Source: Methanotrichaceae archaeon
GTDB taxonomy: Archaea > Halobacteriota > Methanosarcinia > Methanotrichales > Methanotrichaceae
Direction: 5' to 3'
Length of the DNA stretch: 64,000 nt
Assembly: GCA_013178225.1 (NCBI GenBank)
Contig: JABLXE010000005.1
Span: forward strand, 1-64,000
Positions within the stretch are counted from its first letter, which is position 1. Each line of letters opens with the position of its first letter. The notes below the pieces were generated by a model. That model saw nothing but the letters and a program-made list of their open reading frames with translations. It ran no database searches and was not told the origin of the DNA. Of this stretch, positions 5,292 to 61,088 are shown piece by piece. The position numbers and the translations under genes were made by a program.

Positions 5292-5804
5292 TCAAATACC
5301 ATCTTTCAGATATCTTGCTAATATTTTGTCCTTATTTTTTATGCAGGTGTTATCCTTGGCCTCAATCTCTCTGATAAACGAAATCATCTCGCTGTATCCC
5401 AAGACCTGCTTTATGGCCAGCAGCGTTAGGAGATCCTTCATATCCAGAACAGCAATACCGTTCCTTTCCGCAAATCGAATTACCTTCCGGTCATTGGTCA
5501 AAAAGGTAGCTTTCTTTTCCCGACAAATGCTCAAACCCTCTGCCTCGCCATAATGCACACTGCGGTCCGTTGAAATATCGTGAAACGCTTTGAGATCATC
5601 GCTGTCCATTGTGATAACTGAAAGGTGATCGAAGATCCTATCAGGAAAGGAATAACCGGCGTTTTTAGCCCTCATGAGCTCCACGTAAATTGAGTTGGTT
5701 ATACAGAAGTTCGCACCCGGAAGAGCTTTGCTCAAAATATCGATGCGATTGACCTTGGCAAGTGTGCTTGCCACATCGCAATCGATAATTATCATCAGCG
5801 TCAT
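5292..5804 (-). CDS. PIN-domain ribonuclease toxin (VapC-like)
   Basis: This 170-residue protein has the PIN acidic residues in order: Asp8 (IIIDCD), Glu42 (YVELMR), Glu87/Glu89 (GEAEGLSI) and Asp105 (LTNDRK). These coordinate the divalent metal used for RNA cleavage. It follows the UPF0175 antitoxin gene with a 4-bp ATGA overlap (5801-5804), the usual layout of an antitoxin-first toxin-antitoxin operon. It is longer than classical VapC (about 130 residues), with a C-terminal helical tail after residue 130. The target RNA is not predictable. Confidence in the PIN assignment is high. Confidence 0.88.
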   Translation of the reverse strand: MTLMIIIDCDVASTLAKVNRIDILSKALPGANFCITNSIYVELMRAKNAGYSFPDRIFDHLSVITMDSDDLKAFHDISTDRSVHYGEAEGLSICREKKATFLTNDRKVIRFAERNGIAVLDMKDLLTLLAIKQVLGYSEMISFIREIEAKDNTCIKNKDKILARYLKDGI

Positions 5805-6115
5805 ATGAGGCCTAATCTGGACAGCCGCGCCAGGCTCTCCTCATCGGTCCCGCCTACCTCGATTTTTATAGACCTGGAGGCCAGCAAGTCCTTGAACTCC
5901 TCCATGCAAAGCCCGGCGATTTCAGCAGCCTTCCACAGGCTGACCTTCTCATTCTTGTAAAGATCTATGGCTATCTCGATTCGGAGGCCCGGCCTCATCG
6001 ATAATAGAGCTCTTAAGGCATCCGTTATTAGCTCCTCTCGGGAATTATAAATTTCAGCTCGCACCAGAGCATCAATTTCATCGTTCGCAGATGCCATTAT
6101 CAGGAACAACTCCAT
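5801..6115 (-). CDS. UPF0175 family antitoxin
   Basis: This 104-residue protein has an N-terminal segment resembling a ribbon-helix-helix (EIDALVRAEIYNSREELITDALRALL, about residues 13-38) and the UPF0175 core EKVSLWKAAEIAGLCMEEF (about 55-73). It is the antitoxin partner of the overlapping PIN toxin and probably represses its own promoter. The start could be ATG 6115 or the in-frame ATG at residue 7 (MASAND). It is related to the orphan UPF0175 protein at 1426-1710 but not a recent duplicate. Confidence 0.85.
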   Translation of the reverse strand: MELFLIMASANDEIDALVRAEIYNSREELITDALRALLSMRPGLRIEIAIDLYKNEKVSLWKAAEIAGLCMEEFKDLLASRSIKIEVGGTDEESLARLSRLGLI

Positions 6116-6226
6116 GCACGAATTCTGAGACGTTCAGGTGAGACAAAACTCACTTCAGCCTATATGATCGATTTAATCATTTATAAGGTTGAGGCATCGA
6201 TCAAGGGATTTCATCCATGGCATGAG

Positions 6227-6353
6227 CGACATCTCCTCACTGGTGTCCCCCGTGGCCACTGGGTCAGGGGAGCCGACGGCCGGAAGGACTGTCCCTAAGC
6301 CTCCGCGCGCGAAAACCGGGAAGCGCGCGCGGCAGTCCCCTAAAAGAAAGCAC
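6227..6353. repeat. GC-rich hairpin repeat, copy 4 (most complete)
   Basis: Full-length form: ACATCTCCTCACTGGTGTCC, CCGTGGCCACTGGGTCAGGGG, AGCCGACGGCCGGAAGGACTG, then CCGCGCGCG-AAAACCGGGAA-GCGCGCGCGG, then CAGTCCCCTAAAAGAAAGCAC. The GC arms form a near-perfect hairpin with an 11-12 nt loop. It serves as reference for the other four copies. Confidence 0.85.
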
Positions 6354-6396
6354 GAAAACCAAGCCAGAAATTTCGATGTATCCTCAGTTACGCCGC

Positions 6397-7134
6397 TTAG
6401 ATTATTCCTTTCGCCTTCAGAGCTGATTTTACTTCGGCCATATCGCTCTTCAGCTCCACAATATCCTTTTCCTGCACCCGGCCGAGCTTGCGGTTCGCAT
6501 CCCTGGCCTCATCAAGGAGATCATCCTGTTTGCCGAGCATCTGGTCCATCTTGCCGCCAAGATTATCGTTCATGCTCCGGACTTCATCGAGAAGCGAATC
6601 CTGCTTGGTTAGCATCTGGTCCTGTTTGCCAAGCATCTGGTCCTGTTTGCCGAGCATCTGGTCCATCTTGCCGCCAAGATTATCGTTCATGCTCCGGACT
6701 TCATCGAGAAGCGAATCCTGCTTGGATAGCATCAGGTCCTGCTTGCCGAGCATCTGGTCCATCTTGCCGCCGAGGTTATCGTTCATGTTGTTGACCGCAA
6801 AAACAAGCTCCTTCAGATAGACTGCTGCCGTGTCAAGTCTGGTATCGGTCTCGCCTTTCCCCACCAACTTCCCGAATTTCTCGAACTCGCCGCCGGCAGG
6901 AGAGTAACCTTTCTCGATGGATGAAACAACAATCAGGGAATTTTTGATATCAATTGCACTCTCGAACCACTTGATCTTCTCTTCTTCGCCCTCGGCAATG
7001 ATCTTCACCCGGCCGTCCTTCAGGTTCTCGACCATGCCTTTGAGTCCAAAAGCAATGGCTATATCCATTACTCTGCCCCGATAGCCGACCTCCTGGACTT
7101 TGCCGGAGACAATTGCCGTGAGCTTCATCGTCAT
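6397..7134 (-). CDS. Acylphosphatase-domain protein with heptad-repeat coiled coil (copy 2)
   Basis: Aligning with the paralogue at 4163-4819 places the start at ATG 7134 (MTMKLTAIVSG), giving 245 residues; an upstream ATG at 7170 is possible. Arg19 (VQEVGYR) and Asn37 (GLKGMVENLKDG) of the acylphosphatase active site are kept. After residue about 95 come repeats of QMLGKQD-like heptads embedded in a 39-residue period (SLLDEVRSMNDNLGGKMD...), so the coiled coil differs from copy 1 in repeat type although the head is about 75 percent alike. The C-terminal helix ELKSDMAEVKSALKAKGII is shared. This suggests the head and tail are conserved while the rod expands and contracts. Function is unknown. 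Confidence 0.8.
   Translation of the reverse strand: MTMKLTAIVSGKVQEVGYRGRVMDIAIAFGLKGMVENLKDGRVKIIAEGEEEKIKWFESAIDIKNSLIVVSSIEKGYSPAGGEFEKFGKLVGKGETDTRLDTAAVYLKELVFAVNNMNDNLGGKMDQMLGKQDLMLSKQDSLLDEVRSMNDNLGGKMDQMLGKQDQMLGKQDQMLTKQDSLLDEVRSMNDNLGGKMDQMLGKQDDLLDEARDANRKLGRVQEKDIVELKSDMAEVKSALKAKGII
6540..6785. repeat. 117-bp and 21-bp coding repeats
   Basis: The plus-strand word CCATCTTGCCGCCAAG recurs at 6546 and 6663 (117 bp apart). Within each unit a 21-bp GCATCTGGTCCTGTTTGCC unit is repeated. It encodes the heptad rod of the overlapping acylphosphatase-domain gene. Confidence 0.8.
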
Positions 7135-14114: not shown

Positions 14115-15881
14115 CTACTGGATGCTCCCCAGAGAAACCTCATCCAGCTTGAAATAGCCGTTCTCTGTCCGCGCGCCTACGGTGCAGTTGCCTGACGGAA
14201 AGCCGCTCAGGTTGAGTCCCAGGTTGAAACGGCCGTCGATAATCAGCTTCTTGACCACCTTCAACTCAAGCCACACCTCTGTTGCATTATCAGCAGCATC
14301 GCCGAAGATCTTGAAATGATATCTGCCCGGCGATATTTCGTCATTTTTCACCGTCGCTACGCCGTTTTCTCCCGCCCCGGCCCTGATCGAGACCCATGAT
14401 CTGGTGACCTCAACCCCTGCTCCGGCAAACTCCCTCCGGACCCCGACGTTCAGATCCTTGGCACCACGGGCAGTTACCGAGAAGTCATTGGGTTTTTCCG
14501 GCATTAGGACCCCAGGGAGACGATAGGTGTAGCCGTTTGCTGAGCCCTCAACCGTCCAGTTCGAGGAGATCGGCGGCATGACCACATCCACAATATCGAG
14601 GCTGTAGCGCCCTTCGAAGGCCGGAAGGCTCTTTTCCAGGGCGATGGTGAGGAGGACCTCACCCTTTCCCGAACCTGAGATCGAACTATCCTGGCGGGTG
14701 GGACCCACGAACTGCGAGCAATTGTAGGGCCCGGTCGAATAGGCCATCATCCGGCCGTCTTCACACTCCAGACCTTCGACATAAGAGTCGCCTTCCAGCA
14801 GGGTAAGGTTTTGCAGATAGTAGGGGCCGTCAGCCTTGCTGCCCCATAAGAACTTCCCGTCAAAGTCCAGAGGGATAATATGGCTTCCGGGCCGGAACCA
14901 GCCGCCTCCCATAGCCCAGACCAGCCGGGTGCCGTTGGCCGATGTCAGGAACCCCTGAAGGCTGTAATTGGCGGCGCGAAAGACATCCAGCCCCACTTCA
15001 ACGGCAAGATAATCGTAAAATCCGTCACCATCGATGTCCAATCCGTAGTCGCGATAAGATCCGTTCAGCCGGGCGCCGCTCTCGCGCTCCTGGCCGGACT
15101 GCGCGCTGCTAAGGGCATTTAGAGTCCTCTCCTCTGATGACCGACCGATCTCGCGGCCGTCTTCGTCCCGCAGGACCAGATCCGTTAAGCGGTATGCACA
15201 GGAAATATTTGGGCGGTCGAGACGCAAATAAATGGTCTTTGAGCCGAAATTTAAGTGGGACTCGTTATAAAGAGAGATCTTGCGGCCGGTCTGGCCGTCG
15301 ATCAGCTGGGCCTCGAGTGCATAGATGCCCCGATCGAAGACTCTTACCCCTACCGCCAAGACCAGGCTGCCGTCCATGCCGTCCCCATCATCGACCCGAA
15401 AGGAAAAGAGGCCGTTTAATTGGGCGCTCGGAAGCTCCATGGAAGAGGCGTTTTCCAGCTTCACGGATAGACAATAATCCTCCACATCCCTCTGCAGATT
15501 GCCGGACACAACCGCGGCTGTCCAGTATCCTTCTTCGGGATCCGTGGCCCAAAAATTGGCTGACGTTTCATCCGCCAGGTAACCGGGAGACGCCGGCCCC
15601 ACATTCCGGCCGGAGGGAGATTGCATGCGAATCTCCATCGGAGACCCGGCATGTTTCCATTGCAGGGAGAAGCTCGCTTTGGAGACTTGCGGACCGATGT
15701 AAACGCTGTAATTGGCCGTGGTGCTCGGGCCGATATGACTGCATAAGGCAGCACTCGGATCAAGCTCAGGCCTAGGCTCCGCACCTGCCGAAATGAAAAA
15801 AAAACAGAGCGACAGAGCAACAATTACGGTGGCAAGCGGACCGGCTCGAAGGATCGTGGCTTGGGGCGAGCGGGACTTCAT
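14115..15881 (-). CDS. Secreted multidomain surface protein
   Basis: The start at ATG 15881 (MKSRSPQ) places a signal peptide (LATVIVALSLCFFFISAGA) at the usual position and leaves 11 bp after the upstream gene; a GTG at 15911 is an alternative. The first about 150 residues resemble a pre-peptidase C-terminal (PPC)-type beta domain (FSLQWKHAGSPMEIRMQSPSGR...PEEGYWTAAVVSG), as does the small upstream gene. The middle has a repeat-like region with DxDGDGxxD motifs (DDGDGMDG, DIDGDGFYDYL) that look like calcium-binding loops. The last about 200 residues share NDFSVTARGAKDLNVGVRRE and SPGRYHFKIFG with the protein at 19987. It probably sits on the outer face of the cell. No anchor is seen. Confidence 0.7.
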   Translation of the reverse strand: MKSRSPQATILRAGPLATVIVALSLCFFFISAGAEPRPELDPSAALCSHIGPSTTANYSVYIGPQVSKASFSLQWKHAGSPMEIRMQSPSGRNVGPASPGYLADETSANFWATDPEEGYWTAAVVSGNLQRDVEDYCLSVKLENASSMELPSAQLNGLFSFRVDDGDGMDGSLVLAVGVRVFDRGIYALEAQLIDGQTGRKISLYNESHLNFGSKTIYLRLDRPNISCAYRLTDLVLRDEDGREIGRSSEERTLNALSSAQSGQERESGARLNGSYRDYGLDIDGDGFYDYLAVEVGLDVFRAANYSLQGFLTSANGTRLVWAMGGGWFRPGSHIIPLDFDGKFLWGSKADGPYYLQNLTLLEGDSYVEGLECEDGRMMAYSTGPYNCSQFVGPTRQDSSISGSGKGEVLLTIALEKSLPAFEGRYSLDIVDVVMPPISSNWTVEGSANGYTYRLPGVLMPEKPNDFSVTARGAKDLNVGVRREFAGAGVEVTRSWVSIRAGAGENGVATVKNDEISPGRYHFKIFGDAADNATEVWLELKVVKKLIIDGRFNLGLNLSGFPSGNCTVGARTENGYFKLDEVSLGSIQ

Positions 15882-15892
15882 GATTTTGCTAC

Positions 15893-16399
15893 CTAGCCAT
15901 CCTGGCTGCACTCCAGACAGACTTCGGAGGACTGATTCTCTGCGGCATCATCGCTAGAATCGTCTGTCGGTTCGGAAGCGGTCTCCTCCAGCACCACCAG
16001 ACAGCAGTCCATCCCGCCCTCAGGAGCAGTCCTGGCGAAAACGTCCGCCCTCCATTCTCCGGGCTCGGGATCGGGGATTATGTAGTACTGCAAGCTCCTG
16101 TTCCTCTGAAAGACCACAGGCAAATCAGCGGATGAATTAACGATCGCACCATCGGGCTTTCTCAGGGCCATCATCAGATCGAAGCTCGCATTTCCCCAGG
16201 TGAGGATAAAAGACACAGAACTTAAGTTGGGGGTCATAAAATGATCCAGCACCTGCGTCTCGGATGCATTTATATGACGGCATAAGGGAACGGTCACGCC
16301 TTCCGGAAGAGCACCCTGTTCTGCCTGACCGGAACAGGGAAAGCTTAGAGCCATGAACACAACAATCAGGGCCAGAATAACCGATTCAGCTTTTATCAT
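15893..16399 (-). CDS. Secreted PPC-like domain protein
   Basis: A 168-residue protein with a signal peptide (VILALIVVFMALSFPCSG). One beta-rich domain follows: SVSFILTWGNASFDLMMALRKPDG and IIPDPEPGEWRADVFARTAP, the same pattern as the N-terminal domain of the next gene. The C-terminal tail is acidic with two Cys (SSEVCLECSQDG). The stop lies 11 bp before the start chosen for the 588-residue protein, so the two form an operon and may act together outside the cell. Function is unknown. Confidence 0.7.
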   Translation of the reverse strand: MIKAESVILALIVVFMALSFPCSGQAEQGALPEGVTVPLCRHINASETQVLDHFMTPNLSSVSFILTWGNASFDLMMALRKPDGAIVNSSADLPVVFQRNRSLQYYIIPDPEPGEWRADVFARTAPEGGMDCCLVVLEETASEPTDDSSDDAAENQSSEVCLECSQDG

Positions 16400-17061: not shown

Positions 17062-17560
17062 CTAACCATAAATAATGCAGGCCAGTCAGTAATAAAAGTA
17101 TAAATAGGTTTCTCAGCCCTTTAATAGAAATACCTATATCAGCAGGCGCTGCCATTAAACATTATTAAGAATCATTTTTTAGAAGCTGAAAATCTTATCC
17201 AAAAATATCATGCACAGTTTTCCAGCCTTTGAGCTGCGGAACTCTCGCGAATATCCCAAAAACATCATTCGCAAGTGCTTGCTTCAACGCTCACTAAAAC
17301 ATTATTTCGATACCTGTACAGGAGATTGTAGCAATAATGCTCGATTATATAGGATTGACTTCCTGGCATTGACTCGAATGGTTGAGAGAAAGAAATTATA
17401 TATTTTAAATGGCATGATGTCATTTTTCAGAAATCCCAACAGGATCCGGCCGCACAGTTTCACCGCTTTTCTGTCAGGAAAGGATATTTCGCTATCCGCA
17501 ACATGGTTCATGGCCCCAGCAGTCGGCGCTGCCCGAACTCTGCCAATCTATGCCAGAGGA
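17062..17560. other. Intergenic interval with divergent promoters
   Basis: About 500 bp without a supported gene. It contains the minus-strand TATA box CTATTTATACTTTT (17094-17108) for the Cys-rich gene. Short frames on both strands have no recognisable features. Confidence 0.5.
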
Positions 17561-17568
17561 GAAATCTA

Positions 17569-17575
17569 TTTATAG
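17569..17575 (+). promoter_or_regulatory. TATA box for the small membrane protein
   Basis: CTATTTATAGCATATG, 48 bp before the TTG start at 17623. Confidence 0.55.
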
Positions 17576-17622
17576 CATATGGGAAAGAATGTGAAGAAGA
17601 TAAACTTAGGAGGAGGAGCAAA

Positions 17623-17919
17623 TTGCTATCATCTATGCTGAGCACAGTCAGCAGCACGTTAAGCACGACCAGCACCCTCAGCACTACCTCGACCGTAACT
17701 TCTTCGGTCGTCAGCATGTTCGCCACCATCGGGGTATCTGAGATAAGCATCATCACCGTTATCTGTCTCATCGCTCTGCTCAGCGCCTCGGAGATCCTTT
17801 CCGCTTCCTCGCTGTGGAATCGGCGGCTGGCCACCATGCTCAACCTGGCCATTTTCCCCATGGTCATAACGTTCTTTGCCATAGTGCTGTTCAAGGTCGT
17901 AGAAGTATTGAACCAGTGA
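17623..17919 (+). CDS. Small two-segment membrane protein with Ser/Thr-rich N-terminus
   Basis: The start is TTG 17623, because AGGAGGAG (17610-17617) lies 5 nt before it; the frame is open further upstream but that part reads as non-coding. The 98-residue product begins with a Ser/Thr-rich stretch (SSMLSTVSSTLSTTSTLSTT), followed by two membrane segments (about residues 34-56 and 71-94) separated by a short basic loop (SLWNRRLATM). It is encoded alone between divergent genes. No family was recognised, and the Ser/Thr stretch could be a glycosylated or low-complexity surface tail. Confidence 0.6.
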   Translation: MLSSMLSTVSSTLSTTSTLSTTSTVTSSVVSMFATIGVSEISIITVICLIALLSASEILSASSLWNRRLATMLNLAIFPMVITFFAIVLFKVVEVLNQ

Positions 17920-18022
17920 TCGGGCTGCCTTTTTTGGCCTGCTCATTCTCTAAGCTACTTTTAGGTTTATTCCTTAAAATTGTTAGCATTTTGTTGAGCT
18001 GCCACAAGGAGCCTAAGGTTCA

Positions 18023-18892
18023 TTAAAGCGATTTTCTGAAATCGATTCCGGGCGGAAGCCGCCCCAGAAACGTTGCCAGAAATACAAACACTAATCCAGA
18101 AGCCAGGATGATGTCGATCAGCATTTCAGGAAAGGCGGGCGAGACCAGGAACAACGAGACGTTGGTCAGCCCGTGGGCCACGGCTAATACCGGCAGGCTC
18201 CTGGTGATCCAGAACAGCACGCCAAACACCACCCCGGCCAGCGATACGTACAGGAGCTCCAGGGGCAGGTGATAGCCGGAGTGCATAAACCCGAAAAGGA
18301 CCGATGCCATCAACAGCCCGAGGACCGCTCCCAACCTCCCCTCCATGACGGTCTGCAGAGCCGAGCGGAAGACGAACTCCTCCACCAGGCCCACGAACAG
18401 GATCATCGATAAGGAGAGCGCCAGGACGTTTCTCACGCTGAAGTCGGGTATCAGCACCCCGGTGCTGAGCACTCTGTATTCACCGTAGCCCAGGGAGAAT
18501 CCCACTGCCACGGCCAGAGGAAGGTAAAACCAGAAACCTTTCAGCGTCAATCCCAATTCGGAATAGGTAAACATCTTCTCCTTGATGATGAAGTAGATGG
18601 GAAAGAACATCGGAGCATACACCAGAGGATAGGAGTAAAGCGTCAGCTGAAAGAAGACCGGCATGGCCACGTTGAGAAGCCTGAAGAGAGGAAGCAGCAT
18701 CAGCGCCGCAAAAATTCGCCCCTCCAGGTACATGGCGGACAGGACCAGCAGGGTCAGGTTGAAGGCGTGAATGATCATGGCCGCCTCCATATATCCGAAG
18801 AAAATCAGCATCTCCGCCAGCACAATGAGAGAGACCGGAATTAGAAGGTCTAGACTGTATTTATTGATGTAGTCAGCTCTCATCTCCGGCAC
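18023..18892 (-). CDS. CPBP-family intramembrane metalloprotease (CAAX protease-like)
   Basis: A 289-residue protein with about eight membrane segments. The three conserved motifs of the family (Rce1/Abi/CPBP) are present: EExxxR at Glu171-Glu172-Arg176 (VEEFVFRSALQ), FxxxH ending at His204 (FGFMHSGYH), and HxxxN at His240-Asn244 (AHGLTNVSLF). These form the intramembrane glutamate protease site. In eukaryotes Rce1 trims prenylated proteins; prokaryotic members act on unknown peptides or in bacteriocin immunity. It is transcribed divergently from 19073 with no linked gene. The start could be the ATG at residue 4. Confidence 0.88.
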   Translation of the reverse strand: MPEMRADYINKYSLDLLIPVSLIVLAEMLIFFGYMEAAMIIHAFNLTLLVLSAMYLEGRIFAALMLLPLFRLLNVAMPVFFQLTLYSYPLVYAPMFFPIYFIIKEKMFTYSELGLTLKGFWFYLPLAVAVGFSLGYGEYRVLSTGVLIPDFSVRNVLALSLSMILFVGLVEEFVFRSALQTVMEGRLGAVLGLLMASVLFGFMHSGYHLPLELLYVSLAGVVFGVLFWITRSLPVLAVAHGLTNVSLFLVSPAFPEMLIDIILASGLVFVFLATFLGRLPPGIDFRKSL

Positions 18893-19041
18893 CTTTCAAG
18901 TTACATTCGCAAAGACCATAAATAGCTTCCCATCACCACCATCCGGCCGCTCCTTGCACTCCGGGCTTGTGGGGATCAATGTAGTTATGGATAATCATGC
19001 AATCGTCAGCTAAATTAAGGGTATATTGGCGCGGAGAAACT

Positions 19042-19053
19042 CATAAATACTTT
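19042..19053 (+). promoter_or_regulatory. TATA box for the 19073 operon
   Basis: ATAAATACTTTA centred about 25 bp before ATG 19073, which predicts a leaderless or nearly leaderless transcript. Confidence 0.55.
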
Positions 19054-19072
19054 ATTCAGTGTCTATCAAGCC

Positions 19073-19987
19073 ATGAGAAAGCAATGGCTTTTGTTTTTTA
19101 CGATCTACATTATTTCGTGCGCAGCTTGCGGCCTTGAAGCACTCCCAGCAAACGATGCTTCTCACAGCGATGAAGCGCGGATCACGCTCGAAGGCGGTAA
19201 CAGCCTGATCATCCCCCAGGTGGGACTGATGCAGCCAGACCGCCAGTGGACCTACCCCTTTGGCAGCTATCCGATAATCGCCGAGGGCAGCAACATCTCA
19301 GCCGCCTTCACGAGCGGCCAGCAGCTGTCCGGAACCAGAGTGAGCCTGCTGGTCTCGGGCTTCAGCATCTCTGACTTCAGCAGCCCCCAGATGGCGCTAA
19401 ACCAGAGCGCATCACCGGGGCAGGAGGCAGCGATCTCCCTGGACCGGACCGGAGACGGAGCTTTCGTTCTGCCTGGCCTTCCTGCAGGTCTGTTCAGCCT
19501 GTTTGCCCTGGATAGAGCGAATAGAACCGTGCTGGCGGCCCTGCCGGTGCTGGTTACTCCGGGACAACTGCAGCTGGAGATGGATGGCAACGTGACTGCT
19601 GGCGATATTATAGGCCTTCGCGTGCGCGATCAACCTGGGAACGAGAGCCGCATCTACGGGGCAGTTATGGTGTCTTTGAAGGACTACCGCAACGCCAGCC
19701 TGAAGACTGCGACCGACGGCCAGAACATCACCACCAATATCACCCTGGGCCAGAACTTCATGCAGATCCAAGGGGTGCCCGGCTTCTCGCGCGAATTTCT
19801 CCTGAGCCTGTTTTCGCTTCTGCCCGGAAACAGCGCTGTAGCCATGGTCGAGTCAAACCAGTCTGAGGCTACCTTCAACCTGATCAGCGACCGGGAATGG
19901 GAGACGGGAAGCTACATCCTCACCGCAGCCGTCTACTCTCAGGGCCGCGTCTCCGGCATCAAACAGGAGATAGTTGAGGTCCGGTGA
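19073..19987 (+). CDS. Secreted methanogen protein, TIGR04279-like
   Basis: A 304-residue exported protein with signal peptide (WLLFFTIYIISCAACGLEA) and a mature beta-rich region with at least ten N-x-S/T sequons. Blocks such as FPFGSYPIIAEGSNISAAF-like text near residue 63 and LPVLVTPGQLQLEMDGNVTAGD (about 160-181) recall the methanogen extracellular TIGR04279 family, which occurs beside DUF1616 genes; I make that link from memory and rate it moderate. It is the first gene of a three-gene operon: the next gene starts inside its stop codon region (GTGATGA), and a DUF1616 gene follows. It is probably part of a surface-protein complex. Confidence 0.65.
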   Translation: MRKQWLLFFTIYIISCAACGLEALPANDASHSDEARITLEGGNSLIIPQVGLMQPDRQWTYPFGSYPIIAEGSNISAAFTSGQQLSGTRVSLLVSGFSISDFSSPQMALNQSASPGQEAAISLDRTGDGAFVLPGLPAGLFSLFALDRANRTVLAALPVLVTPGQLQLEMDGNVTAGDIIGLRVRDQPGNESRIYGAVMVSLKDYRNASLKTATDGQNITTNITLGQNFMQIQGVPGFSREFLLSLFSLLPGNSAVAMVESNQSEATFNLISDREWETGSYILTAAVYSQGRVSGIKQEIVEVR

Positions 19988-21033
19988 TGAGAGCAGCACT
20001 AAACCTGCTGCTTTTCATCTCCTTTCTGTTCGCGGAATGCTCGGCCTTCGAGGTCTGGCCTGAAAATCCGCAGCCTGGCGACGTTCTGACCATCTCCGGG
20101 TCAGCCTCACCAGGAGAAGAGATCGTTTTGCGCTCGAACTTTTCCATGCAGCTTCCAGTGACCGCAGGCCGGTACGAATACCAGGCCCGGGTGGAAGTCC
20201 CGCGAAAGCCCAACCGTTTCGCGGTCACGGCCAGAGGCGTGCAGGACATGAACCTGGGGGTGAAGATGGGCCTCTGGATCACCAAGAGTTTCTCAGCCTC
20301 CAGCGGAAAGGCCTCGGTATCGCAATCGGATATTCCCCCCGGAAACTATGAGCTGAAGGTATTTGGACAGGCTCTTTCCGGCGCTTCGCAGGTGGATCTG
20401 GACGTCTCGGCCGAGACGACGGCTGTGGCGGACGCCACAGGACAATACCGTCAGGAGATCGACACCACGGGAATTCCGGCCGGCGACTATCGAATAGAGA
20501 TTCTCGGGCAATCCAGGACCGTGCACCTTGGCTCTTCAGAAGATCGCGATTATCCCTCAGAATCCGACTCCGGCCGGAGAGACCATCAAGCAGCCGGCCT
20601 TCCCAGGCCCGCTCAAAGGGAGATTACCCCACAAGTCGTTGCCTGGTACGCCGGGCAGATCGGCCTGGACCCCAACGATCCGGAACAGCATGAACTGGCC
20701 GAAGAACGCCTGAGAATCCGCATCAAAGGAGACTACTGGAGGGTGATTGCCCGCGGAGATCCTCTGACCGAGCAGGCCGGAGACTGCGAGCAGGACTACT
20801 GTCTGGTGAGGGGTACAGACGCCTGTACGGTGTGCCGGGAAAAAGAGATGCTGACCCTTGAACGAGCGCCCGAAAACGAAATTGTTGGCGTAAGCTCAGC
20901 AGTCAGGTATAGCGATAACCTCAGCAGCACAGGCCCTGATGATGAGGAGGCATCTTTCGGAGAAAACAAAGGATTTATCAGCAGAATTGTCGACTTGATC
21001 AGGGTCATGCTGGGGGGCCTGAACGGAGGATGA
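19987..21033 (+). CDS. Secreted protein with a C-terminal GLDPNDP/DYWR domain
   Basis: The start is ATG 19987, overlapping the upstream TGA by one base (GTG 19984 is an alternative). A signal peptide (ALNLLLFISFLFAECSA) is followed by Ig-like beta domains: RFAVTARGVQDMNLGVK and PPGNYELKVFG match the C-terminal part of the protein at 14115. After a Ser/Asp-rich linker, residues about 215-295 form a separate module (VVAWYAGQIGLDPNDP, GDYWRVIARGDPLTEQAGDCEQ, DYCLVRGTDACTVCREKE) with four Cys. The same module ends the DUF1616 protein directly downstream. The start of the next gene overlaps the stop (ATGA), so translation is coupled. The module function is unknown; its Cys pairs suggest disulfides or a metal site. 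Confidence 0.75.
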   Translation: MRAALNLLLFISFLFAECSAFEVWPENPQPGDVLTISGSASPGEEIVLRSNFSMQLPVTAGRYEYQARVEVPRKPNRFAVTARGVQDMNLGVKMGLWITKSFSASSGKASVSQSDIPPGNYELKVFGQALSGASQVDLDVSAETTAVADATGQYRQEIDTTGIPAGDYRIEILGQSRTVHLGSSEDRDYPSESDSGRRDHQAAGLPRPAQREITPQVVAWYAGQIGLDPNDPEQHELAEERLRIRIKGDYWRVIARGDPLTEQAGDCEQDYCLVRGTDACTVCREKEMLTLERAPENEIVGVSSAVRYSDNLSSTGPDDEEASFGENKGFISRIVDLIRVMLGGLNGG

Positions 21034-22292
21034 AGTAGATCACAGGAAGTCGACCGGATGAAGAAGATGATGCGGGATCGGCTCTGGCTACGGTTGGAGA
21101 GCGGAGCCCTCGGCTATACGGGCAACGGGAGATCATAGCGGCAGACCTGCTCCTGGCCATACTGCTGGCCATCTTCACTTTGCTCTTCACCCTGGTCCCC
21201 CAGCTATCCGATCTTCCGGTGCGCGTGCCTCTCGGCCTGTTGATGGTGCTCTTCGTGCCGGGCTATACCCTGATCGCAGCTCTTTTTCCCAAGAAAGACG
21301 ACCTTGACGGCATTGAGCGGGTGGCGCTGAGCTTCGGGCTCAGCATCGCCGTGGTGCCGCTAATCGGCCTGGGCCTGAACTACACCCCCTGGGGAATCAG
21401 GCTCACCCCGGTGGTGATATCCCTGGCCATCTTCACCGTGGCCATGGCTTTGGCAGCACATCTGCGGCGGCGCTCGCTGCCTCTGGAGATGAGGTTCTCA
21501 GTGGAGTTTCGAAAAGGCGTCGATTCCGTTAAGGAGGAGTTGATGGCCGACAGCCACAGCCGGCTGGACAAGGCCCTCACCGTCTTGCTGGTTTTATCCA
21601 TCATCGCCTCGGTGGCAGCCCTCGTCTACGTGATTGTGACCCCCAAGCAGGGGGAGAAGTTCACCGAGTTCTACATCCTGGGCCCGGGCGGAATGGCCTA
21701 TAACTATCCGACCGCGGTCCAGGCAGGAAACCAGAGCACGGTAATCGTGGGGGTGGTCAACCACGAGTACGCCCTGGTGAACTACACCATGGATATGTCG
21801 GTTAACAATTCTACCATCCTGCAAAGAAAGATCGCACTCCAGCACAACCAGACCTGGGAAAAGCCGGTGACCTACGTCCTCAACCGCCCCGGGGACAGCC
21901 AGAAGCTTCAGTTCCTGCTGTACCGGGAGAACAACTTCACCGCCCCCTACCGCGACCTGCACCTGTGGGTGAATGTGTCATCGAAATCAGACGGTGAATA
22001 CCAGAAGACTGGATCAGCCATTCCTCCTCAAGCAATGGAATGGTTTGCTCGCTATCGAGGCCTTGATCCAAACGATCCCCAGCAATATGAAAAAGCAAGA
22101 AGCGAGCTGGAAAATATGCTAAAGGAAGATTATTGGAGAATTATTTCCCGAGGAGAGCCATTAACTGAGGAAGCGGGAAATTGTGAAGACGATTATTGCC
22201 TGGTTAGGTGGAGGGGCGCTTGCGTGTCTTGTCGCGAAAGAGAGATTGAATTCCTATCTCAAAATTCACCATCATCCAACCATACAGCCTAG
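21030..22292 (+). CDS. DUF1616 membrane protein with in-frame TAG at codon 3
   Basis: ATG 21030 overlaps the upstream TGA (ATGA) and is in frame with the protein, but the third codon is TAG (21036). After it the frame runs open as SRPDEEDDAGSALATVGERS and REIIAADLLLAILLAIFTLL, the first membrane segment of a DUF1616 protein. The only other start is TTG 21180, which cuts that segment. The core has four membrane segments (about residues 44-160 from ATG 21030), then an extracellular domain rich in N-x-S/T (NYTMDMSVNNST). The last about 75 residues copy the GLDPNDP/DYWR/CLVR module of the preceding gene. That tail (from about 22010) has clearly lower GC and different codon choice than the rest, so it may be a recent fusion. 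Confidence 0.75.
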
Positions 22293-55821: not shown

Positions 55822-56295
55822 ATGCTCATAGCTGGCGAAGCCGCACCCGATTTCTGCCTGCAGGATGACGATTTGCAGGAAGCCTGTCTCCATTCTTATC
55901 TCGGTCGCTGGCTGGTGCTGTATTTCTATCCCCGTGACAACACCAGCGGTTGCACGCGCGAAGCCCTCGACTTTACCGCCGCAAAAGCGACCTTTCAGGT
56001 GCTGGGTGCAGACGTTGTCGCGATCAGCCCCGATTCCTCTGCCAGCCACAGGAAGTTTAGAGAGAAGCACGACCTGAAGATTAGACTTCTGTCGGATAGC
56101 GATCATGAGGTCATGGAGGCATATGACGTGTGGGCGAAAAAGAAGACCTTTGGTCGCGAAAGCTATGGGGTTTTGAGATCGACTTTTCTAATAGATCCAA
56201 ACGGAGATATTGCCCGCATATGGCGATCGGTTAAGGTAAAAGGACATGTTGACGAGGTGATAGAAACCCTGAAGGCGTTAAAGCGATCGGTATGA
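55822..56295 (+). CDS. bcp: Peroxiredoxin of the BCP/PrxQ family
   Basis: A 157-residue thioredoxin-fold peroxidase. The peroxidatic Cys is in YPRDNTSGCTREALDF (usual motif TPGCT-x-E; here SGCT-R-E). The resolving Cys five residues later (in GCTxEACxF of many members) is replaced by Leu, so it should work as a 1-Cys enzyme or use another thiol. FLIDPNGDIARIW and ISPDSSASHRKFREKHDL fit the family. It reduces H2O2 and organic peroxides, protecting an anaerobe from oxygen. Start ATG 55822. Confidence 0.88.
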   Translation: MLIAGEAAPDFCLQDDDLQEACLHSYLGRWLVLYFYPRDNTSGCTREALDFTAAKATFQVLGADVVAISPDSSASHRKFREKHDLKIRLLSDSDHEVMEAYDVWAKKKTFGRESYGVLRSTFLIDPNGDIARIWRSVKVKGHVDEVIETLKALKRSV

Positions 56296-56590: not shown

Positions 56591-58648
56591 ATGGCAAAAT
56601 TAATATTATTTTCAATTATTACCATAGCCTTAATAATGACCGTTTTCAATGCCAGCATGCCAGCGGCTGCAGTTAGCGTTACCGGCTATCAAAGCCCTAC
56701 TGGAGCGGCCTGCCCAACCCAAAATGATTGCATCACTGCTTGCGACTGCCCAGGAAACACCTGCGTCAGCAGTTGTGGCTGTGTAACGGTGTCTCTTTGC
56801 CCCTCTGGAACTACATGCCCAACCGGGGTTAAGTGCACCACCAGCGGCTTCTGTACCACCAGCAACGACTGCCCCACCAGTGCCAACTGTCCCACAGGAA
56901 GCGGCTGTGCAACCGATTCCAGCTGTCCGACTGGCTCGTCCTGTGCCACAAGCAATGATTGCACAACCAGCGCATATTGTGCCACCAGCGACAATTGCCC
57001 GACTGGCAGCAGCTGTGTCACCGGAAGCGAATGTACAACCGGCTCAAACTGCCCAACCGGAGCAAGCTGCGCTACTAGCTCCGGGTGTACCACCAGTTCG
57101 TTCTGCTCCACTAGCAACGCCTGTCCTACTGGATCAGGGTGCACTACAGACAGCAGCTGTCCATCGGGCTCTTCATGTCCAACGGGTGTCGGATGCGCAA
57201 CAAGCTCTGACTGCCTGACCGGGGCCGGTTGTACCACTGGTGCGGGCTGTCCCACCGGAACGGGATGCACCACGGGCGCCACTTGTGCCACCGGAAGCGG
57301 CTGTGCAACGGACAGCAGCTGCACCACCGGGGGTTCATGTCCTACCGGCAGCGACTGCCCCACGGACAGTAGCTGTACAACAGGCTCAGGATGCACTACA
57401 GGAAGCACCTGCTCAACCGGCGGGGCCTGTCCCACAGGATCCGGGTGCACCACTGCGGTTACCTGCCCGACCGGTGCAGGTTGTACAACCAGTACTCTGT
57501 GCTCGACCAGCGGCGGGTGCGTCACCACTGCAGGCTGTCCGACAGGAGCCGGATGCACCACCAATGCGGTCTGTTCGACAACTGCGAGCTGCTCAACAGG
57601 AGCCACATGCCCGACTGGCAGCAGCTGCGCCACAGACGGCAACTGCCCTTCAGGAAGCGATTGCCCCACCGCGTTGGCCTGTCCCACGCTATCGGGCTGC
57701 ACCACCAATAACTACTGCCCCACGGGCAGCGGCTGCATAACCGGCAGCGCCTGTCCAACTGGATTGGGCTGCATAGCGGGCCCGGAATGCGATCCCGCAT
57801 GTCCGATGGAACTCACCTGCACTACCTGCAGCATCGCCGCCCGGAGCGGCAGCCTGGAGAACATAGAGAGGCTGATGATCAGGTCCCTTCAAAACCTCAA
57901 TTCTTATAGATACACCGAAGGCGTTGAGAGCAGTGGAGCCTACCAGGGAGACGCGGGTTGCCTAGCGTTCGCATCGGAGGGCATCAAAAATGAGGAGGGC
58001 TATCTCAACTTTGTGGACGTAGAAGCCAAGATGAGCAGGTCTTCAACTGCGACCGACTGCGAAGGAACAACGGCCCAGGAATTTGCGGAGGCCTATCTCC
58101 AGGGACGGGATCTTTACACCAACGAAAACGGAATTTGGAAGCGATTTTCCGTACCGAATCCAGAGCAGGTGCTGATGGAGATGGACAAGCTGGGCGGGAT
58201 TGTGGACATCATATCAGGCTCGGAGAATATCGTGCTGGTGAACGAATCCGTTGACGAGCAGGATTATTATGTATTGAAGATCATTCCCAGTGAATCGTCC
58301 TCCCTCCAAATTATCGAGGATCTGGCGCAGGCCGCGCTCTCATGTCCGCATATGGCGCTCTGCAATGCCGATGAAGGCCTGTGGAATGGAGAAAACGGCC
58401 TCATGGAAAACAGCGAAATGGCCTGGACGGTGTGGATCTCCACCACCGATTTCCTTCCCAGAAAGGTGGAAGGAGAGGTTAGACTGCATCTCACTCCTGC
58501 GATGTTCAAGGCTTCACCTGATGTCTGTAACCTCAATGTGGAGATCTACCAGAAGAACAGCATGCTCTTCCACAGCTTCGACGAGCCTCTGGCGATCTCT
58601 CTTCCCGAAGAGGCCATAAAAGCAGAGATGGTTGCCTGGCCGGAATAA
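56591..58648 (+). CDS. Secreted protein with about 60 hexapeptide Cys repeats and a LolA-like C-terminal domain
   Basis: A 685-residue exported protein with signal peptide (LILFSIITIALIMTVFNA), ATG preceded by GAGGT. From residue 41 to 399 a Cys appears almost every sixth residue: about 60 units of the form C-[PTAS]-T-G-[SA]-[GSx], such as CPTGSG, CTTGST, CATSND. The even spacing predicts a disulfide-laddered beta-solenoid like the 12-residue Cys repeats of beetle antifreeze proteins (two 6-residue halves per turn). Residues about 415-680 form a second domain (LMIRSLQNLNSYRYTEGVESS, WTVWISTTDFLPRKVEGEV) with the layout of LolA-like/DUF6612-type lipoprotein domains. It is a single gene with no anchor. 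Function is unknown. Confidence 0.85.
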   Translation: MAKLILFSIITIALIMTVFNASMPAAAVSVTGYQSPTGAACPTQNDCITACDCPGNTCVSSCGCVTVSLCPSGTTCPTGVKCTTSGFCTTSNDCPTSANCPTGSGCATDSSCPTGSSCATSNDCTTSAYCATSDNCPTGSSCVTGSECTTGSNCPTGASCATSSGCTTSSFCSTSNACPTGSGCTTDSSCPSGSSCPTGVGCATSSDCLTGAGCTTGAGCPTGTGCTTGATCATGSGCATDSSCTTGGSCPTGSDCPTDSSCTTGSGCTTGSTCSTGGACPTGSGCTTAVTCPTGAGCTTSTLCSTSGGCVTTAGCPTGAGCTTNAVCSTTASCSTGATCPTGSSCATDGNCPSGSDCPTALACPTLSGCTTNNYCPTGSGCITGSACPTGLGCIAGPECDPACPMELTCTTCSIAARSGSLENIERLMIRSLQNLNSYRYTEGVESSGAYQGDAGCLAFASEGIKNEEGYLNFVDVEAKMSRSSTATDCEGTTAQEFAEAYLQGRDLYTNENGIWKRFSVPNPEQVLMEMDKLGGIVDIISGSENIVLVNESVDEQDYYVLKIIPSESSSLQIIEDLAQAALSCPHMALCNADEGLWNGENGLMENSEMAWTVWISTTDFLPRKVEGEVRLHLTPAMFKASPDVCNLNVEIYQKNSMLFHSFDEPLAISLPEEAIKAEMVAWPE
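56711..57787. repeat. 18-bp periodic coding repeat
   Basis: TGC/TGT codons recur about every 18 bp across 1.08 kb, with degenerate third positions, encoding the hexapeptide Cys repeats. Long open frames on the opposite strand here are by-products of this periodicity. Confidence 0.9.
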
Positions 58649-58880: not shown

Positions 58881-59786
58881 CTAGGAGGTGGTATTCAGAT
58901 CCTCTCTCACCTTTGCCAGCCTGGCCTTGCTGGCTTTAATCGATCCCGCCAGGGTGGATGGATCTTCCACCTGGGCCTGCCCCTGAGAACAGCAGCTGTC
59001 CTGTGGCTGTGATTCCAAGAGATTTGCCAGCAGTCCCGATTCTGTGTCGATATCCAGGATTATAGAACTCTCGTTGGTGTACTGGTACACCAGCTTGGTG
59101 GGACGGCTGAGAGGCGAAAGCCTGGAGAAGAACAGCACAGACCTTATAGTCTGGTTGGGTTCCAGGGCTACGACCGCCAATCTCTGATCGCTGCTGCCAA
59201 GCCGCTGGCAGTTGTACTTCCATCCCCATTGATCGATGAGGCTCCAGTTCTTAGCGCTGATGGAGAGCTTTGAGGTGTCGTTGTTGGTGAGGCCCACATC
59301 CATCTCAATTGACTTGCGGTTTGACGCGAGCGTGGAGCTGAGAACTCCGTAATAATAGGCTGTGGCGAATCCGTTGCTGGAATTGATCAAACTCCCCATG
59401 TCGATGGTAAACTGACCTCCAGCAGACGGATCTGCAGAAGGATCGATGGTGAGGCTCTGGGCTATAGCCTCTTTGGGAACCAGAAAGCCGATCAGCCAGC
59501 GCTGAGGCTGAAGTTCCTTGGTGTACTCAGACCTCATATTGTAAACCCGGTGATTTCCATCGGTCAGAGAATAGGCAGCTTCGACGGCAGAGCCGTTGTT
59601 GAGCTGGCCTCTCACCAGGCTCAAATCGAAGTAGAGGAGGACCTGATACGAGTTTGTATTTCCTGGAACGATAGGATCCTTAAAGGTTCCAAAGATAGTA
59701 CAGTCAACAGCTCCATTGCTGCCGTATAGCGGATATCCCTGGGCGGTTCCCAGGACAAGCATCAAGGCCAGCACTAACCATTTCAT
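58881..59786 (-). CDS. Secreted protein, paralogue pair member A
   Basis: A 301-residue protein with signal peptide (WLVLALMLVLGTAQG). The mature part has a DUF4352-like beta domain: CTIFGTFKDPIVPGN, SIEMDVGLTNNDTSKLSISAKNWSLIDQWGW, ALEPNQTIRSVLFFSRLSPLSRPTKLVYQY and IILDID. A short Ser/Lys-rich helix ends the protein (KASKARLAKVREDL). The next gene (60024) has the same plan with low identity. A Cys pair (SCCSQG) may be oxidised. It is extracellular with function unknown. Confidence 0.72.
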   Translation of the reverse strand: MKWLVLALMLVLGTAQGYPLYGSNGAVDCTIFGTFKDPIVPGNTNSYQVLLYFDLSLVRGQLNNGSAVEAAYSLTDGNHRVYNMRSEYTKELQPQRWLIGFLVPKEAIAQSLTIDPSADPSAGGQFTIDMGSLINSSNGFATAYYYGVLSSTLASNRKSIEMDVGLTNNDTSKLSISAKNWSLIDQWGWKYNCQRLGSSDQRLAVVALEPNQTIRSVLFFSRLSPLSRPTKLVYQYTNESSIILDIDTESGLLANLLESQPQDSCCSQGQAQVEDPSTLAGSIKASKARLAKVREDLNTTS

Positions 59787-60023: not shown

Positions 60024-61088
60024 TTAGCTCGCCAATCCCTTTCTCACCGCTTCCAGCCTGGCCTTGGCCTCATCGATGCTTGATCCGATCTTCTCGCTCA
60101 CAGTGCTCGTGTTCCCTGATGATGTGCCTTGATTCACGCCGTTTAGACGCTCTTTGCTCGCGTTTATCTCATCCTTTAGAGACATCGCTTTTTCTCCGGT
60201 GCTCTGATTGGTCTTGGCTGTGAGGGCGGGAGTCTCCGAGGCCGCGGTCGTAGCAGCAGAAGCCGCCTGTTCCTGCACCGCAGTTTGTTGTGCCTGTGCC
60301 GCCGGGGCGGAGGCAGCTGCAGCGGCTGAAGTGCTCTGCGAGGATGACCCTGTGCCGTAGACCACATCGTCTGACAGAGGCGCTAGATCTTTGTCCAGAT
60401 CTATGGCAATCTGGTTGGGTTCCAGATAATCGTAAACCAGGGTCGAGGGCCGGGAAAAAGGCGATACACCAACAAAGCTGACCTTAATGTGAGTCGCTGC
60501 CATCTGTGGCTCTAAGTCCACGCCAGAGAAGCCGGTAGTGGTGTAGTAAGGCCATCCCCACTGGTCCAGGAGGGTAAAGTTTTCCGGGCTGATGAATATG
60601 CTGGAGTCTCCGCCGTTGGCGAGAGATACATCGAACGATACCGCCTGAAGCTCCGGCTCGATCAACCAGTCCACCAGCCCGTAGTATCGCAGCGTTAAAC
60701 CATTGCCCGTGCCCTTGGGAGTCAGCCACCAGTTCATATTGAATGGCGCTCCGGCAGTCGGCGTGACTTTCATGAGCTTGAAGAGTGCTCCTTCCGGAAC
60801 CTGGAATACCAGCATCTGACGACCGGGCTGATAGCTCTTGTATTCAGTAGGACGGAATATCTGGTCCTTGCTGTCCAGAAGTTCGTAAGTGGCGTTTTCT
60901 GCACCCAGAAGCCCTACATCAAGCTTCAGAGTCACGGTGCCGTTCTCTTCGCCCGGTGTTCTGTAAACCTCAAAGAGAGTGCATTTCACATTGTCGTTTC
61001 CGCCCTGCAGCGGAGAGGCCTGAACCACGCTCAGGGCCAGCATCAGCAGCAGGACCCCAATAACAGATCTCAATACTCGATCCCCCAT
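60024..61088 (-). CDS. Secreted protein, paralogue pair member B
   Basis: A 354-residue protein with signal peptide (VIGVLLLMLALSVVQA). The beta domain matches member A: CTLFEVYRTPGEENGTVTLKLDVGLL, SFDVSLANGGDSSIFISPENFTLLDQWGW, LEPQMAATHIKVSFVGVSPFSRPSTLVYDY and IAIDLD. It then has an Ala/Ser/Gln-rich linker (about residues 245-295) and a helical tail like that of member A (SIDEAKARLEAVRKGLAS). The shared tail suggests both attach to the same partner. Each gene has its own AT-rich upstream region. Confidence 0.72.
   Translation of the reverse strand: MGDRVLRSVIGVLLLMLALSVVQASPLQGGNDNVKCTLFEVYRTPGEENGTVTLKLDVGLLGAENATYELLDSKDQIFRPTEYKSYQPGRQMLVFQVPEGALFKLMKVTPTAGAPFNMNWWLTPKGTGNGLTLRYYGLVDWLIEPELQAVSFDVSLANGGDSSIFISPENFTLLDQWGWPYYTTTGFSGVDLEPQMAATHIKVSFVGVSPFSRPSTLVYDYLEPNQIAIDLDKDLAPLSDDVVYGTGSSSQSTSAAAAASAPAAQAQQTAVQEQAASAATTAASETPALTAKTNQSTGEKAMSLKDEINASKERLNGVNQGTSSGNTSTVSEKIGSSIDEAKARLEAVRKGLAS

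Follow-up and report, generated by a model that had tools for sequence, protein, structure and literature searches.

What does a methanogen do with a protein in which a cysteine recurs at every sixth residue, dozens of times in succession? The question is raised by a gene in the window, by which we mean the whole 64,000-nucleotide stretch of Methanotrichaceae DNA analysed here. An earlier, sequence-only reading of the same open reading frame (56591-58648, + strand, 685 amino acids) had described an exported protein and proposed for it a long, disulfide-stapled solenoid of the beetle antifreeze type, on the surface of a methanogen. The host is indeed a methanogen, MCR alpha being present in the source genome (G000).

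The window gene and the age of its array

The gene is built from the following parts:

56591..58648, + strand: whole gene, exported Cys-hexad protein with a C-terminal domain (open reading frame and its translation)
56591..56674, + strand: signal-type N-terminal segment, residues 1-28 (hydrophobic core, mean Kyte-Doolittle value 2.83 over 15 residues)
56711..56779, + strand: irregular Cys-rich start of the array, residues 41-63, a possible cap (Cys at 41, 47, 51, 53, 58 and 62)
56780..57805, + strand: regular array of 57 consecutive hexads C-x-T-x-x-x, residues 64-405 (Cys spacing, DNA pattern scan, unit comparison)
57800..57829, + strand: irregular Cys-rich end of the array, a possible cap (Cys 404, 410 and 413)
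57848..58645, + strand: C-terminal DUF6612/LolA-like domain, residues ~420-685 (homology to stand-alone exported proteins)

The hydrophobic N-terminus bears out the proposed export, and the full protein has no Pfam match. It contains 71 Cys, the longest run at an exact spacing of six comprising 57 of them (residues 64-400). The Cys hexads read earlier are thus real, if slightly fewer than supposed, with 57 units over about 340 residues instead of about 60 over about 360. The C-x-T-G-x-x motif was over-specific: Thr occupies Cys+2 in 52 of the 57 units and Ser in three, but Gly is found at Cys+3 in only 31, and the consensus is C-[P/T/A]-T-[G/S/D]-[S/A]-[G/S/x]. The composition is dominated by Thr (22%), Ser (16%) and Gly (15%), hydrophobic and charged residues are nearly absent, and the array is poor in acidic residues and His. 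To judge by their residues, the irregular, Cys-dense ends are possibly cap-like.

Six C-x-T units followed by a Cys, written as a degenerate DNA pattern, are matched 36 times in the window, as against no match in 100 dinucleotide shuffles. Neighbouring 18-nucleotide units of the array are 52% identical, a value that stays flat with lag, and over all unit pairs the fourfold third positions in codons for the same residue coincide at background level (731/2364 = 0.31), which together argue for an old periodicity maintained by selection on the protein.

Homologs of the residues that follow the array (~420-685) occur in every family genome among the relatives searched; they are exported proteins and often lipoproteins. 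The domain itself has no Pfam match, but DUF6612 is matched by five of nine aligned homologues (best 3e-12), and LppX_LprAFG weakly by a few. A LolA-like domain, as read earlier, would thus come by way of its relatives, and for the window member only: the other array proteins end without it. From these weak matches we presume that it belongs to the LolA superfamily, whose fold commonly accommodates lipids or other hydrophobic ligands.

Around the gene, a peroxiredoxin (AhpC/TSA) gene lies 296 bp upstream on the same strand (55822-56295, +), and two similar-looking exported proteins without Pfam match are encoded downstream (58881-59786, - strand, and 60024-61088, - strand). Elsewhere in the window, a 158-bp tandem repeat spans 737-1259 in 3.3 copies of 96% identity.

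Gene family, distribution and neighbours

The Cys pattern is not confined to one gene. The source genome holds six further array loci, one of them broken, making seven in all, and they are scattered through the genome:

C4:40054-41073: array paralogue
C27:75110-75829: array paralogue
C8:322-894: array paralogue
C7:45666-46457: array paralogue
C22:162959-163618: array paralogue
C5:26786-27752 (L468 about 5790-6837), - strand: broken array paralogue

The C5 gene is interrupted by a TGA in its reading frame, which also shifts further downstream; it is either decaying or affected by a sequence error. A hydrophobic signal-type N-terminus is present in all seven proteins, for C5 as judged from its translation only. 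Defined by such an N-terminus and a long C-x-[T/S] hexad array, the family comprises these seven loci and one in G001, a genome of a different genus with a single intact array (locus C40). The saturated fourfold sites and the existence of seven independent signal-bearing genes rule out a recently formed DNA repeat as well as an artefact of reading frame.

The genome search that had been proposed thus added seven loci, all within two of 50 family genomes. Among the loci inspected, neither the exact Cys pattern in a sample of 393 genomes of the phylum nor a profile search in a sample of 247 yielded a further genuine array. Profile matches in three genomes (G014, G181 and G266) proved to be short frames made of 18-nucleotide DNA tandem repeats, and the matches listed in pattern scans of genomes and viral contigs were mostly out-of-frame or low-complexity repeats. 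Viral contigs searched for loci related to the archaeal array contained none, the intact paralogue arrays gave nothing above Pfam cut-offs, and no description of such archaeal proteins was found in open-access literature searches and family libraries. The archaeal Cys-hexad family is real and lineage-restricted, and it matches no catalogued family that we found.

Within 261 pooled hexads, Thr or Ser fills position 3 in 260 and Cys fills position 1 in 242, with Gly at position 4 in 147 and Pro at position 2 in 138; the Thr/Ser is thus conserved even more strictly than the Cys. Cys makes up 15-19% of the array proteins, and its count in the mature protein is odd in three of seven. Array length and unit number differ freely among paralogues. 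The proteins of C4 and G001 share a similar C-terminal tail.

Some of the loci come with related neighbours. In G001 the array gene opens an apparent operon and is followed, after a gap of 22 bp, by genes for membrane proteins of 245, 695 and 689 amino acids, whose orthologues (55-62% identical) adjoin the C5 array of the source genome; the array precedes the membrane-protein genes in G001 and follows them at C5:

L468 6199-12177, - strand: three-gene membrane-protein operon (DUF4350 / ABC_transp_aux / GIFT) adjoining an array
L471 1336-6965, - strand: the same three-gene operon adjoining an array

The 704-residue member from the source genome carries ABC_transp_aux, GIFT and DUF4350 domains; it has close relatives in the two array-bearing genomes only and distant ones in seven others (at most 31% identity over longer matches). 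The 256-residue member of this operon, encoded beside two arrays, is present in exactly two of the 50 family genomes, the array-bearing pair, for which simple counting gives a chance of 1 in 1225; a shared genomic island would explain the co-occurrence as well. The divergent neighbour of the G001 array and the neighbour of the C4 array share 47% identity. Homologs of G001 array-locus neighbours also occur within the window (14118-15947, - strand, and 17386-22289, + strand), about 35 kb from its array gene.

Repeat unit and fold

How many hexads make up one structural unit? Paralogue C27 is built from two alternating hexad types (as in CMTGSC-CPTGVD and MPTGHN-CMTSCN), hexads of the same parity being 0.491 identical and those of different parity 0.392 (z=10.8; 0 of 1000 shuffles). 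The fourfold sites display no such difference (0.277 and 0.287, respectively), so that this 12-residue period is held by selection. A Cys missing from one C27 hexad is usually made up for by a second Cys in its partner, so that every 12 residues keep two. The period is strong only in this paralogue; in the window array, with four moduli tested, the two-hexad signal stays marginal (z=2.0, p=0.043). No array has a selection-kept period of three hexads, or 18 residues. Periods of five hexads in C4, four in C7 and three in G001 are accompanied by raised synonymous identity at those lags (0.74, 0.55 and 0.55), as expected of recent DNA duplication. The C27 period thus supports a two-hexad unit and speaks against an 18-residue left-handed helix, and we consider two hexads with paired Cys, as suggested by this one paralogue, the most likely structural unit. 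The tolerance of tandem DNA expansions by three, four and five hexads, on the other hand, calls for near-equivalent hexads and counts against a rod built from 12-residue units.

Structure prediction returned no regular solenoid. Two AlphaFold2 runs, on residues 29-415 as a single sequence (pLDDT 38) and on 84 residues with an alignment of only four window rows (pLDDT 35), gave neither a fold nor secondary structure, but their input was nearly alignment-free, and the missing fold is weak evidence on the structure of the array. When compared with the PDB, a hexad profile found Tenebrio antifreeze protein (1EZG) as its top match (E=0.0052). However, upon permutation of the five non-Cys columns, the true order ranked 73rd by full score and 85th by best domain among 120, and the match thus rests on Cys spacing and composition only; homology to the Tenebrio protein was rejected by this control. 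As to the Cys oxidation machinery that the sequence-only reading had proposed to check, the Pfam profiles VKOR and Thioredoxin_4 (DsbA-type) found nothing in the source genome, though both were detected in control genomes.

Possible roles and known systems

We tentatively favour exported structural proteins that make up a small family confined to this lineage; two consecutive hexads would form the unit, their Cys being joined in pairs or by bridges, and the array would act as a stiff, flat-sided rod or as a covalently cross-linked strand of surface or matrix. From these genes we infer a surface location, the pairing of Cys, the rod shape and a role for the C-terminal domain. If each coil takes two hexads and rises by about 4.8 A, the window array would measure some 13-14 nm, and the rod of this member would present its LolA-like (DUF6612-type) domain. 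Fifty-seven Cys in register over saturated synonymous sites count for such a rod or matrix protein, as do the signal-type N-termini at all seven loci, the constancy of hexad positions 1 and 3, the cap-like ends and the 256-residue neighbour shared by the array-bearing genomes. The foldless AlphaFold2 models count against it, the VKOR and Thioredoxin_4 results, in the genome of a strict anaerobe, against a disulfide-stapled rod, and the odd Cys counts against one with paired Cys. The earlier rod hypothesis is therefore partly supported: its 12-residue coil gains the selected period of C27, but it loses the Tenebrio-like order within the hexad and the Thr ice face. A sharper version, in which 12-residue Cys-laddered beta-solenoid rods arose independently in an archaeal lineage, converging in geometry on the beetle antifreeze coils, spread to seven genes and acquired a membrane-protein operon of their own, all in a strict anaerobe in which neither VKOR nor Thioredoxin_4 was found, strikes us as somewhat unlikely.

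The main rival to a rod is a disordered, Thr/Ser/Gly/Pro-rich chain, perhaps O-glycosylated on Thr, in which the regularly spaced Cys would link one molecule to the next, giving an insoluble sheath or biofilm cement without any solenoid. The low pLDDT, the composition and the freely varying array length agree with it, as does the precedent of the Methanospirillum hungatei sheath, proposed to be disulfide-linked (PMC10593813). However, random cross-linking needs neither an exact six-residue spacing repeated 57 times nor a selected 12-residue alternation, and the predictions were run on essentially no alignment; we hold this chain to be rather unlikely.

Less probable still is a left-handed parallel beta-helix (LbH) with three hexads, or 18 residues, per coil and with C and T pointing inward as [STAV]-x-[LIV]-G. 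The register C-x-T-G-x-x equals [STAV]-x-[LIV]-[GAED]-x-x, LbH acyltransferases are the best single-sequence PDB matches (E 0.22-0.37, not significant), viral C-x-F-G-x-x proteins match Hexapep (P0001 3.5e-9; P0002 2.6e-4, the latter below the Pfam cut-off), and the G001 array has a three-hexad repeat. Yet Hexapep (PF00132) matches none of the archaeal arrays, Thr would have to stand in for nearly every aliphatic core residue, and the G001 repeat bears the mark of recent duplication.

Also improbable, and if anything a shade more so, is an extracellular metal or sulfur-ligand scaffold, on which a ladder of reduced Cys would bind Fe, Zn, Ni or other soft metals in a metallothionein-like or mineral-templating manner. 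It would suit the Cys content, the strictly anaerobic host, the odd Cys counts and the VKOR and Thioredoxin_4 results, but a monotonous C-x5-C spacing in place of CxC or CxxC clusters, a window array with few acidic residues or His to serve as co-ligands and a position-3 Thr/Ser more invariant than Cys all speak against it. A beetle-type ice-binding protein with a flat Thr face, which the Cys spacing and the 1EZG match could evoke, would be very unlikely, as the order within the hexad adds nothing to that match and Thr occurs once per hexad at Cys+2, with no TCT motif flanking the Cys.

Should the array prove to be a Cys-stapled coil, then a strict anaerobe in which the usual disulfide enzymes were not found would possess a disulfide-type solenoid far longer than the beetle proteins and, with it, a natural rigid-rod material. 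Should it instead be a cross-linking matrix protein, acetate-using methanogens would have a concrete candidate component for their tough envelopes and aggregates. The gene family, the operon partner and the 12-residue signature make either reading directly testable.

Among known systems, the DUF6612 (PF20316) proteins are homologous to the C-terminal domain; they stand alone and are often lipoproteins, the fusion to an array being seen only in the window gene. The Methanospirillum sheath is likened to the arrays by description: it consists of an extracellular, beta-rich structural protein, proposed to be disulfide-linked, which has two Cys per monomer and no hexad array (PMC10593813). The viral C-x-F-G-x-x arrays from IMG/VR (L290 12136-13230, - strand; L287 17-550, + strand), which match Hexapep and PHROG 5353, of unknown function, may form a Cys-laddered, LbH-like family of their own. 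They resemble the archaeal proteins in pattern, with long Cys-every-six arrays and Gly at Cys+3, but differ in their Phe core position, their Hexapep match and the lack of a visible signal-type N-terminus. LbH hexapeptide repeats share the six-residue period and the C-x-[core]-G-x-x register, whereas the archaeal arrays lack a Pfam match, replace the aliphatic core by Thr and have no selected 18-residue period. The hyperactive antifreeze proteins of Tenebrio and Dorcus, finally, are built from 12-residue TCTxSxNCxxAx repeats (PMC8038014). They share with the arrays a Cys at every sixth residue, a Cys-dense irregular start, a frequent small residue at Cys+3 and, clearly in C27 only, the 12-residue period; but they place Thr on both sides of Cys, where the archaeal proteins have no TCT and an invariant Thr/Ser at Cys+2, and they extend over about 14 hexads, compared with 57 in a row in the window array.
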